A DNA stretch of 64,000 nucleotides from Haloarcula halophila (GCF_029278565.1 NZ_CP119559.1:1984001-2048000), one strand, 5' to 3'. Shown: positions 25,008-28,065, counted from the stretch's first letter. A program made the numbers and translations. Notes: a model not told the origin generated them from the letters alone.

Positions 25008-25271
25008 ATGCAACTGTGGGGCTGGCTCATCGCGTACGTGGTCACGTTCGGGCTCGTGCAACTCCTCCTGTACCACTACTTCCAGCACCGCGGTACGTCG
25101 AGTGAGTCCCCCGAGTCGACGCCGGCCGGCGCCGGTCACGGAAGCGCCCCGGTCGAACCGGAGGGGGGATCGGTGTCGGGCGAGGTTGTGCCCTGCCCCG
25201 AGTGTGGGACCCGCAACGACGGCCACCGGATGATCCGGTACTGCCGGTCCTGTGCGGCCTCGCTCCAATAG
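25008..25271 (+). CDS. membrane-anchored zinc-ribbon protein
   Basis: An 87-residue protein with one N-terminal membrane helix (WGWLIAYVVTFGLVQLLLYH) then a polar linker and a C-terminal zinc ribbon with CPEC (63/66) and CRSC (79/82). This layout matches small haloarchaeal proteins that I recall as DUF7577-like. Function unknown; it is likely an adaptor at the cytoplasmic face of the membrane. It is followed 30 bases downstream by the Nmad3-like gene on the same strand. Confidence 0.78.
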   Translation: MQLWGWLIAYVVTFGLVQLLLYHYFQHRGTSSESPESTPAGAGHGSAPVEPEGGSVSGEVVPCPECGTRNDGHRMIRYCRSCAASLQ

Positions 25272-25301: not shown

Positions 25302-26021
25302 ATGCGCAGCGTCGCCATCAACGTCGGGGCCAACACCAACGAACCCGGCTTCCGCGGTCCCGTGTTCCCCGACGGCTCCTTCGAGTATATCCCGATTCCC
25401 GAGTCCGAGCCGACGGCCGAACCCGTCCCGACCTACGCCGACCTCGACCTGGAGACGGACGTCTCCGCGGTCGCCGACCGGCCGGTCCACTTCGACCCGG
25501 AGTTCCCCGAAGCCGGCGGTGACCGCTATACCTACGGTGACGAACACGGGGTGAAAGCCGGGCCGCTCTCGGAACTGTCGGCCGGCGACTACCTCTTCTT
25601 CTACGCGACGCTCTCGACGGTCGGCGAGGGGGCGGTCTGGGCACCGCCCGAGTGGGGTGCTTACGTCGTCGGTCACTTCTGTCTGGCCCGTGACGCGGTG
25701 ACCGGCGAGGGCTACCGGGAGCTGTCCGCCGAGGAACAGGCCGTCTTCGACTCCAACGCCCACGTCAAACGTGAGTCCGTCGACGCCCGGGTCCTCGTGT
25801 TGGGGGACCCGGCGGCGTCGCAACTCTACGAGACGGTCGTCCCGCTCTCGACACCCGACGGCGGCACCGAGGCGAACCACCTCGTCACGGACCTGTCCTC
25901 GGACTCGGGGAAGGGGCCGTGGTGGCGTCGTCCCATGCGGTTCGACGAAGCCGGCACCGAGCGACTGTTGGCGCTGGCGACTGCTCCGCCGGCGAGCGCA
26001 GCAGGTGAAACAGGCGAATGA
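25302..26021 (+). CDS. Nmad3-like putative nucleotide-modification protein
   Basis: A 239-residue protein. The N-terminus MRSVAINVGANTNEPGFRGP continuing VFPDGSFEYIPIPE closely follows the signature of the Nmad3 family (nucleotide modification associated domain 3), whose members begin with a G...P-(I/V)-(F/L)-PDG...PIPE element and are found with DNA hypermodification genes of phages and mobile elements. Other family-like parts are GDYLFFYATLS and YVVGHFCLARD. The assignment rests on pattern memory. No thymidine/pyrimidine hypermodification enzyme is adjacent; the next gene downstream is a KaiC-like ATPase, 33 bases away. Confidence 0.65.
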   Translation: MRSVAINVGANTNEPGFRGPVFPDGSFEYIPIPESEPTAEPVPTYADLDLETDVSAVADRPVHFDPEFPEAGGDRYTYGDEHGVKAGPLSELSAGDYLFFYATLSTVGEGAVWAPPEWGAYVVGHFCLARDAVTGEGYRELSAEEQAVFDSNAHVKRESVDARVLVLGDPAASQLYETVVPLSTPDGGTEANHLVTDLSSDSGKGPWWRRPMRFDEAGTERLLALATAPPASAAGETGE

Positions 26022-26054
26022 GTTATCACCACTGAGAACAGAACGTGAAAGCAT

Positions 26055-26768
26055 ATGCCGAAACGTGCTCAGACTGGAGGTATGCGCATCTCCAGCGGTG
26101 TCCCCGGATTCGACGAACTCGTCGAAGGGGGGCTCTTGACCGACCGCCTGTACGTCGTCAGCGGCCCTCCAGGGAGCGGAAAGACGACGTTCTGCTCGCA
26201 GTTTATCACACAAGGGGCGAAGGAAGGGGACTCCTGTCTCTACGTGACGATGCACGAGACGAAGACCGAACTGATGCAGGACATGTCGGGCTACGAGTTC
26301 GGGTTCGACCGGGCGATCCAGTCCGACGCCGTCCAGTTTCTCAACCTCGTGACCGAGAACGGTAAACGGACGATCACACAGTTCGGCTCGGAGGGTGGGT
26401 TGACCAACCGACTCGTCGCCTACATCAGACAGAACGACATCGAACGGGTCGTCATCGACTCGACGATGCTCCTCCAGCATTTCATGAACGACGTCGGCGA
26501 CGAGATCACCGGGTTTCTCTCGGCGCTGAAACAGACCGAGGCGACGACGCTGCTCATCTCGGAGATGACCGATCCCTCCTCGTACAGCGACGAACACTAC
26601 CTCGCCCACGGGGTCATCTTCTTCCACAACTTCTTGGAAGGCGGTAGCATGATACGAGGCCTCCAGGTGATCAAGATGCGTGGGACTGCCATCGACTGTG
26701 ACATCCGCCAGATCCAGTTCTCGGACGAGGGCCTGCGGGTCCTGCCCGACCAGAAGGTCGAGTCATGA
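26055..26768 (+). CDS. KaiC/RAD55-like RecA-family ATPase
   Basis: A 237-residue single-domain RecA-like ATPase. It has the KaiC-type opening SSGVPGFDELVEGGLL, Walker A GPPGSGKT (37-44), and Walker B RVVIDST (131-137). It lacks the second KaiC domain. Single-domain KaiC-like (RadA-like, RAD55 family) proteins in archaea act in signalling and motility; the haloarchaeal ones are mostly uncharacterised. An in-frame ATG at 26082 would shorten it by nine residues. A gagttatc box at 26020-26027 supports the start used. The stop overlaps the start of the next gene by four bases (atga), so both proteins are made in a coupled fashion. Confidence 0.88.
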   Translation: MPKRAQTGGMRISSGVPGFDELVEGGLLTDRLYVVSGPPGSGKTTFCSQFITQGAKEGDSCLYVTMHETKTELMQDMSGYEFGFDRAIQSDAVQFLNLVTENGKRTITQFGSEGGLTNRLVAYIRQNDIERVVIDSTMLLQHFMNDVGDEITGFLSALKQTEATTLLISEMTDPSSYSDEHYLAHGVIFFHNFLEGGSMIRGLQVIKMRGTAIDCDIRQIQFSDEGLRVLPDQKVES

Positions 26769-27175
26769 GCCGCTATGCGCGCGAGTTCGACACCGACTGG
26801 GAGACCATCGACAAGGACGAGGCGACCGAGCGCGCCTACGCTATCGGTGTCGCCGAGCGACTCGGCGAGTACAACCGTGAGGAACTCGAGCGCATCTACG
26901 CCGAGATGGGATCGGCCTACCAGAAGAGTCTGGTCGAACTGGCCTACGACGAGGGCCGCAACGAGGCAGCGGAGATCGCGGAGACCACCGACGCCGACGG
27001 GACTGCCGTCTGGGAGGATCTGGTCAACGGCGAGAAGAGCTATATCGCCGAGGACGAGATGCCGACCGGCGGCCGGGACGGCCTTCCGGAAGCACTCGAA
27101 CCCTCGGAACTGCTCGACAGGCAGGAGGTCGACAGCACCGAGCGCGTCGACAAACCCAACTTTCTGGACCGCTGA
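26765..27175 (+). CDS. acidic partner protein of the KaiC-like ATPase
   Basis: A 136-residue acidic, largely helical protein (TERAYAIGVAERLGEYNREE; QKSLVELAYDEGRNEAAEIA) with a tail ending ERVDKPNFLDR. No cysteine, no membrane segment and no recognised domain. Its start overlaps the stop of the ATPase gene by four bases, which argues for equal amounts and a complex with it. I do not know its function. Confidence 0.8.
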   Translation: MSRYAREFDTDWETIDKDEATERAYAIGVAERLGEYNREELERIYAEMGSAYQKSLVELAYDEGRNEAAEIAETTDADGTAVWEDLVNGEKSYIAEDEMPTGGRDGLPEALEPSELLDRQEVDSTERVDKPNFLDR

Positions 27176-27188
27176 GACGGACGGCCGT

Positions 27189-27716
27189 TCACTCCGGGGG
27201 TTCGACCGGCGCTTCTAGCTGGGCGATATCCACGACGAGTTGGTTGTTCGTCGCGTCGACGGCGACGACCGTCCCGGCGACGACGAGTCCCGCGACCGGG
27301 GTCGGACCGAGCGCGACGGCCTGCCCGACGCTGAACTGCGAGACGGGGTCCTGCAGGTGGACCCGCGCCTGGCACTTCTCGGGGTGGTGGACCCCGGTCA
27401 GGTTGATCTCCTCGACCGTGACGTCGACGCGCTCGAAGTCGTGGGCCAGCGTCACTGATTCGGCGTCGTCCATCGAATCGCGCCCGATCGCCTCGTAAGC
27501 CAGTTCGGTCGGCTTGTATCCGCCACTGGGTCCGGAGACGCTCTCGACCAGACCCAGCGCTGCGAGGCTCTGCATCTGGTTCTGGACGGTACCGAGGTTG
27601 CGGTCGATCTCGTCGGCGATGACGCGGCCCTTCACCGGCCCGTCGGCTGACTGGTGCCTGTTGACCAGCGTCGTGAGCGTGCGCTGTTGACTGCCGGTCA
27701 ACTCGATCTGGACCAT
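27189..27716 (-). CDS. HTH transcriptional regulator (Rrf2/winged-helix-like)
   Basis: A 175-residue protein. Residues 1-75 form a winged helix-turn-helix (TGSQQRTLTTLVNRHQSADG, VIADEIDRNLGTVQNQMQSL, LGLVESVSGPSGGYKPTELA) with the GPSGGYKP wing typical of Rrf2-like proteins. The C-terminal half is a beta-rich domain (EEINLTGVHHPEKCQARVHL; LGPTPVAGLVVAGTVVAVDA), probably ligand-binding. It has only one cysteine, so it is not an FeS Rrf2. The ATG at 27716 is chosen because a TATA-like box (agtataa, 27741-27747) lies 25-31 bases upstream. It converges on the ATPase operon and diverges from the ribbon-helix-helix gene. Confidence 0.85.
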   Translation of the reverse strand: MVQIELTGSQQRTLTTLVNRHQSADGPVKGRVIADEIDRNLGTVQNQMQSLAALGLVESVSGPSGGYKPTELAYEAIGRDSMDDAESVTLAHDFERVDVTVEEINLTGVHHPEKCQARVHLQDPVSQFSVGQAVALGPTPVAGLVVAGTVVAVDATNNQLVVDIAQLEAPVEPPE

Positions 27717-27740
27717 ATCGTCTGTTCCACGAGTAGGCAC

Positions 27741-27807
27741 TTATACTGTGGGCTCGGAGAAACACCTGTGACTGTTCCGCCCCCGATGGGAACAGGAGTT
27801 ATATACC
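27741..27807. promoter_or_regulatory. divergent promoter pair between HTH and RHH genes
   Basis: Two TATA-like boxes face opposite directions: ttatact (27741-27747; agtataa for the minus-strand HTH gene) and gttatatacc (27798-27807; for the plus-strand gene starting at GTG 27829). Both are 25-31 bases from their start codons. Because both genes encode DNA-binding proteins, mutual or autoregulation through this 110-base space is plausible. Confidence 0.6.
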
Positions 27808-27828
27808 AGAGTCGATAAGCCGGCCACT

Positions 27829-28065
27829 GTGAGCAAAGTCAAGGTGTCACTGTCGGACCAGACTGTGACCGACATCGAACGGCTCGTCGAACAGGGAGAG
27901 TTCATCAATCAGGACCAGGCCATCGAAGACCTCCTCAAGCGTGGGGTCTCGGCCTACAACACGACCGAGGAGTCGACGGAGTCCGAACTGGACGATCAGA
28001 TGTTCGGCCAGACTGCCGCCGACCAGCAGGACCCGGCCATGCAGGACGACGACTACGGGTTCTGA
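27829..28065 (+). CDS. ribbon-helix-helix-like regulator (DUF7120-like)
   Basis: A 78-residue protein. The first 45 residues (KVKVSLSDQTVTDIERLVEQ, GEFINQDQAIEDLLKRGVSA) have the strand-helix-helix pattern of CopG/MetJ ribbon-helix-helix DNA-binding proteins: alternating hydrophobic strand, then two amphipathic helices. The tail is acidic and Gln/Asp-rich (QTAADQQDPAMQDDDYGF). It starts at GTG, supported by the strong gttatatacc box. It probably binds DNA as a dimer; targets are unknown. Confidence 0.8.
   Translation: MSKVKVSLSDQTVTDIERLVEQGEFINQDQAIEDLLKRGVSAYNTTEESTESELDDQMFGQTAADQQDPAMQDDDYGF

Follow-up and report, generated by a model that had tools for sequence, protein, structure and literature searches.

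The locus described here lies in a stretch of 64,000 nt of the Haloarcula halophila genome (GCF_029278565.1 NZ_CP119559.1:1984001-2048000), in the following called the window, with positions counted from its first nucleotide. Its main subject is a pair of overlapping genes on the + strand. The first encodes a CirD-type single-domain KaiC-like ATPase of 237 amino acids (aa) (26055..26768; PF06745, E=9e-44, together with primer mapping and a tree). The second encodes an acidic protein of 136 aa, referred to as the CirD partner (26765..27175), the evidence for which comes from its adjacency to CirD, the overlap, an alignment and AlphaFold2. The stop codon of the ATPase and the start codon of the partner share an ATGA at 26765-26768. 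The P-loop of the ATPase is intact (Walker A GPPGSGKTT), as is the Walker B residue Asp135.

The pair is preceded by a gene for an Nmad3 protein (25302..26021, + strand; PF18754), which ends 33 bp before cirD. It is followed by a gene for an HrcA-type winged-helix regulator (27189..27740, - strand; PF03444, E=2e-26) and, divergent from the latter with 88 bp in between, by one for a DUF7120 ribbon-helix-helix-like protein (27829..28065, + strand; PF23434). An initial annotation, made from the sequence alone, had listed these five open reading frames (ORFs), the intact P-loop, the four-base overlap, the winged-helix and ribbon-helix-helix calls and the divergent orientation of the last two genes, all of which was confirmed. 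It did not contain a zinc-ribbon DUF7577 ORF (25008..25271, + strand; PF24463, E=3e-10) ending 30 bp before Nmad3. Because gaps of 30 bp and 33 bp are followed by the ATGA overlap, the zinc ribbon, Nmad3, cirD and partner genes are likely co-transcribed in the window genome. The DUF7120 ORF shows a weak N-terminal similarity to CdrS (NF058555, 21 bits at a cut-off of 100).

Gene order was compared in three sets of neighbourhoods comprising 20 loci across genera, 51 further haloarchaeal loci and 30 loci mostly of the same genus, the window among them. In all of them cirD and the partner gene are adjacent (20/20, 51/51 and all 30), which is far beyond chance. The coupling of ATPase and partner claimed by the initial annotation holds in every haloarchaeal locus of the first two sets (71/71). 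The distance from stop to start in 72 haloarchaeal pairs mostly amounts to -1 (24 pairs), -4 (14) or +1 (11). Moreover, a survey of 115 relatives detected the partner in 65, a set that almost coincides with the ATPase-bearing genomes; in G081, which is incomplete, the ATPase is present but no partner was detected. Two loci (L059 and L102, metagenome-assembled genome QS_1_68_17) exhibit an in-frame TAG within cirD and an intact partner gene, possibly owing to a pseudogene or an assembly error.

The surrounding genes do not follow this pattern. Nmad3 adjoins cirD in 8/20 of the genus-sampled, 9/51 of the further and 29/30 of the mostly same-genus loci. For the winged-helix gene the respective values are 1/20, 0/51 and 2/30 (the window and its nearest relative), for the ribbon-helix-helix gene 2/20, 1/51 and 10/30; both are lineage-specific neighbours. 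Nmad3 is present in 88 of the 115 relatives, often without the ATPase, many ATPase-bearing genomes have no Nmad3, and in several lineages possessing both genes they lie apart. The zinc ribbon accompanies Nmad3 or, in several genera whose locus has no Nmad3, cirD, which it then directly precedes. The initial annotation had proposed the five genes as a candidate system, to be dropped if only the ATPase-partner pair proved to be conserved. Exactly this is the case, and a single five-gene system is rejected on the gene order across the neighbourhood sets. Nmad3, the zinc ribbon and the two regulator genes are neighbours, not members of the pair.

The ATPase was identified by means of published quantitative PCR primers for cirD of Haloferax volcanii. 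Both map in correct orientation and with 0-2 mismatches to orthologues in Haloferax (L115, L118, L119 and L120) as well as in L088, the mapping having been done on Haloferax relatives and not on a named H. volcanii record. In L088 an aldo/keto reductase gene is found upstream of cirD and the partner gene downstream. The window ATPase is 57-59% identical to the Haloferax CirD forms, whereas paralogues reach ≤34% among the matches listed. In the phylogenetic tree the CirD clade, including methanogen forms, is monophyletic (support 0.99) and separate from CirA and ArlH. Judged by sequence, the window ATPase belongs to the CirD orthologous group; CirD of H. volcanii is HVO_2232 (PMC10869688). The term "uncharacterised", which the initial annotation applied to the candidate system, is right for the partner and wrong for the ATPase, which primer mapping and published cirD work identify as CirD. 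An internal methionine of the ATPase (Met10) aligns with the start codon in many orthologues.

Fold matches of CirD comprise KaiC CI domains as well as KaiC-like proteins of archaea. The position of the first catalytic Glu (E77 in KaiC) is occupied by His67 in all haloarchaeal CirD aligned and is never Glu across the clade. Haloarchaeal CirD retains Glu68, Walker A/B and the Lys/Arg finger (KMRGT in the window protein), and no Ser/Thr is found in CirD at the aligned KaiC phosphosite positions. Assignments to other families were rejected. CirD is not ArlH (38 bits versus an NCBIfam cut-off of 215), and a true ArlH is encoded by a separate gene in locus L169. It is not a circadian KaiC either, having one domain instead of two (TIGR02655, 78.5 versus 546 bits), and it scores as neither RadA (21.5 versus 259) nor RadB (20.9 versus 172) at the NCBIfam cut-offs. 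KaiC-like proteins of thaumarchaeal loci (L163, L164, L167) form a sister group of the CirD clade; in these relatives a convergent gene takes the partner position and no partner is found.

The partner is a previously undescribed protein. It shows no Pfam or NCBIfam match above noise, and its predicted structure has no fold match in the PDB at E<=0.001. AlphaFold2 predicts with high confidence helices at residues 3-7, 17-32, 38-47, 51-75 and 79-88, the block means being 85-96 for residues 1-70 and 82 for 71-90. The tail following this bundle (1-88) is predicted to be disordered and ends in P-x-F-L, whereby the last residues regain some confidence. In four loci (L065, L109, L110 and L111; the three named ones are Halobiforma and Natrialba) the partner carries a long Ser/Asp-rich extension beyond the usual P-x-F-L end, leading to a total of 189-236 aa.

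A phylum-wide genome sample was used to survey methanogen forms. CirD orthologues with 38-44% identity are present in Methanolobus, ANME and Syntrophoarchaeum, each followed by a gene for a small protein. Its features are an LG motif within a helical part, a G-K-x-x-G motif, a variable tail and a late P-x-x-L element, and it resembles the haloarchaeal partner in position and layout. The match between both partner profiles is weak (hhalign E=0.02 over 57 columns, a score exceeded by 1 of 100 column-shuffled controls) and only suggestive of homology between the methanogen and haloarchaeal partners. In most Methanolobus-type loci (L138, L143, L145, L146, L149, L160, L172) a convergent gene for a GTP-binding-protein-like product of 344-345 aa comes after the partner.

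Co-occurrence of the pair with the archaellum was evaluated using PF04659 as a stand-in for the latter, with uneven genome sampling at the family level. Among 293 Halobacteriales genomes, all 133 with CirD also have PF04659, 78 have neither, and none has CirD without PF04659. The pattern also holds within genera that mix CirD-positive and PF04659-negative members (g9, g30, g49 and g79). An earlier sample of relatives contained three CirD-positive genomes without PF04659, all of them 60-81% complete. The methanogen-type partner was detected in 21 genomes (Methanosarcinales), 21/21 with PF04659, while 45 of the non-Halobacteriales genomes, estimated at ~180, have PF04659 (p about 3e-15 for totals of 178-182). 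Two copies of the methanogen partner together with two PF04659 genes occur in nine genomes of one genus (g129: G375, G385, G403, G431, G435, G442, G450, G478, G494) and in two of another (g160: G470, G486), where one second match is a fragment. For Methanosarcina, two archaellum loci have been reported (PMC4858521).

The pair is also linked directly to motility genes. In Halorubrum, Halohasta, Natronocalculus and others (L117, L121-L135, L137, L175 and likewise L064) cheR-cheA-cheB is divergent from cheW-cirD-partner, and in Natrialba (L110, L111) and L176 the order is cheB-cheA-cheD-cirD-partner. Archaellin genes, csmR and cirA precede cirD-partner in L113, L170 and L177, with cheW after the pair in the latter two. 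In locus L169, from the same phylum and inferred to be Archaeoglobi-like, an archaellin-ArlDE-ArlH-ArlI-ArlJ operon and a group consisting of EarA, a methyltransferase, cirD and the partner are transcribed divergently. To our knowledge, H. volcanii has no EarA regulator. An EarA-type regulator and a methyltransferase at archaellum loci were noted earlier (PMC4858521). Chemotaxis or archaellum clusters thus enclose the pair in Halorubrum, Natrialba, other Haloferacaceae and L169, whereas in the window genus it has moved away from them. In the window genome the PF04659 genes are located >300 kb from the pair, which therefore lies outside the motility island. The order CirA-csmR-archaellin is found beyond H. 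volcanii (L113, L170, L174, L177), in agreement with the CsmR/CirA pairing published in 2026.

CirD of H. volcanii is the subject of several studies. Cells deleted for cirD neither swim nor form archaella, transcripts of CsmR targets being little changed, while the cirA deletion is hypermotile (PMC13286277, Nussbaum 2026). CirD protein is strongly reduced in conditioned medium (PMC12240190), and in a proteomic analysis of cell shape it groups with RdfA and chemotaxis proteins (PMC10869688). The cirD transcript rises ~10-16-fold in darkness (PMC3941300, Maniscalco 2014). The available parts of these four publications do not mention the partner, and a search for HVO_2233, its presumed tag deduced from HVO_2232, found nothing in the library searched. 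The deletion phenotype is already published, whereas the co-occurrence of CirD with the archaellum and its linkage to motility genes are new here.

Taken together, we consider it probable that cirD and the translationally coupled partner gene form a two-gene motility module, most likely a nucleotide-dependent switch allowing archaella to be made. CirD would form an ATP-loaded oligomer and, as His takes the place of its first catalytic Glu, would hydrolyse ATP slowly and without a KaiC-type phosphorylation cycle. The partner would bind CirD via its helical bundle and reach a target through the disordered tail and the P-x-F-L end. Both proteins would then permit archaellum assembly, presumably mainly after transcription, since archaella are absent although CsmR targets change little.

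Several points weigh against this interpretation. CirD is not a universal part of the archaellum, as 82 of the 293 Halobacteriales genomes have PF04659 without it. The p-values for its co-occurrence with PF04659, by genome (Fisher p=3e-26) and by genus (38/0 versus 26/23, p=1.5e-7), are uncorrected for shared ancestry. Deletion of csmR in addition to cirD restores slight motility (PMC13286277). The catalytic behaviour ascribed to CirD is read from its sequence only, and the binding of the partner to CirD is itself inferred. In an AlphaFold model of a read-through CirD-partner fusion (L096, TGA read as Ser) the bundle is confident and the tail unplaced; the partner N-terminus was partly misaligned in the underlying alignment and no interface conclusion was drawn.

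Other explanations start from the same observations. The direct linkage to cheW (Halorubrum and relatives) and to cheB-cheA-cheD (Natrialba) would also fit a role of CirD and its partner, together with CheW, in chemotaxis signalling or in the assembly of receptor arrays, the missing archaella being an indirect effect. Loss of chemotaxis alone normally leaves the filaments in place, whereas the cirD deletion has none. In the Archaeoglobi-like locus, moreover, the pair is linked to EarA and arl genes, and no che gene was found within that stretch of 20 kb. We regard a chemotaxis role as not very likely. A clock-like circuit for light/dark timing, with CirD belonging to a set of four KaiC homologues that have higher transcript levels in darkness, draws on that increase and on the loss of the other cir rhythms in cir deletions (PMC3941300). 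It appears unlikely for a single-domain protein that has no KaiC phosphosite residues, scores far below the clock-KaiC cut-offs and whose deletion leads to loss of archaella. The RecA fold common to KaiC, RadA and RadB could finally point to a recombination paralogue similar to RadA/RadB that acts with a cofactor. This is hardly conceivable given scores far below the cut-offs for RadA and RadB, and it leaves the co-occurrence with the archaellum unexplained.

The Nmad3 gene would suggest another function, namely a nucleic-acid modification or defence system of all five genes or of Nmad3 and the KaiC-like ATPase. The Nmad3 assignment itself withstood a profile search over its full length (PF18754, E=2.1e-47, 162 bits versus a cut-off of 27). 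The closeness to cirD on the same strand and the adjacency in nearly all of the mostly same-genus loci speak for such a system and make co-transcription likely in the window lineage. The hint from phage hypermodification loci used by the initial annotation does not carry over, Nmad3 being a widespread, ordinary chromosomal gene in 38 of the 48 haloarchaeal genera searched. Among the near neighbours of Nmad3 scanned, no base-modifying or phage genes were found and all belong to ordinary chromosomal families. With Nmad3 and CirD distributed independently, the two regulator genes merely local and CirD tracking archaellum genes instead, a modification or defence system is very unlikely.

Beyond the motility switch, we tentatively propose a wider scenario which is possible but clearly less certain. 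The pair may be an ancient ATP-driven checkpoint made up of two proteins and common to Halobacteria, Methanosarcinia and an Archaeoglobi-like lineage. Acting after transcription, it would license the assembly of archaella and couple this assembly to the chemotaxis apparatus. The partner would then represent a new fold and provide the second component that a KaiC-like switch of archaea has been missing. The partner bears on the question of what makes archaea form archaella at a given time and why the cirD deletion has none.

KaiC-family ATPases are known to cluster with archaellum and pilus loci, second components being rarely evident (PMC4858521). The CirD partner would be such a component, mostly missing for archaeal KaiC-like ATPases. 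H. volcanii CirD, of the same orthologous group, likewise has a single KaiC domain, and the Haloferax orthologues also have the partner downstream; in the window genus, by contrast, cirD sits behind Nmad3 and near no motility gene. ArlH (FlaH), the ATP-binding protein of the archaellum motor, shares the KaiC/RecA fold and the link to the archaellum but forms a separate clade; it has been reported in all archaellated archaea (PMC4858521), whereas CirD is found in some. CirA, encoded next to csmR and archaellins, belongs to the same superfamily, regulates motility and adjoins cirD in L113, L170 and L177, but unlike CirD keeps both catalytic Glu residues. A related idea is the prediction of a KaiC-like ATPase with a helical "second component", arCOG01174 with arCOG03758 (Makarova, Koonin and Albers 2016, PMC4858521). 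Common to both is the idea that a KaiC-like ATPase and a small helical protein beside it would regulate a type IV pilus system, but the predicted pair is tied to pilus subclade 4B and not to the archaellum.
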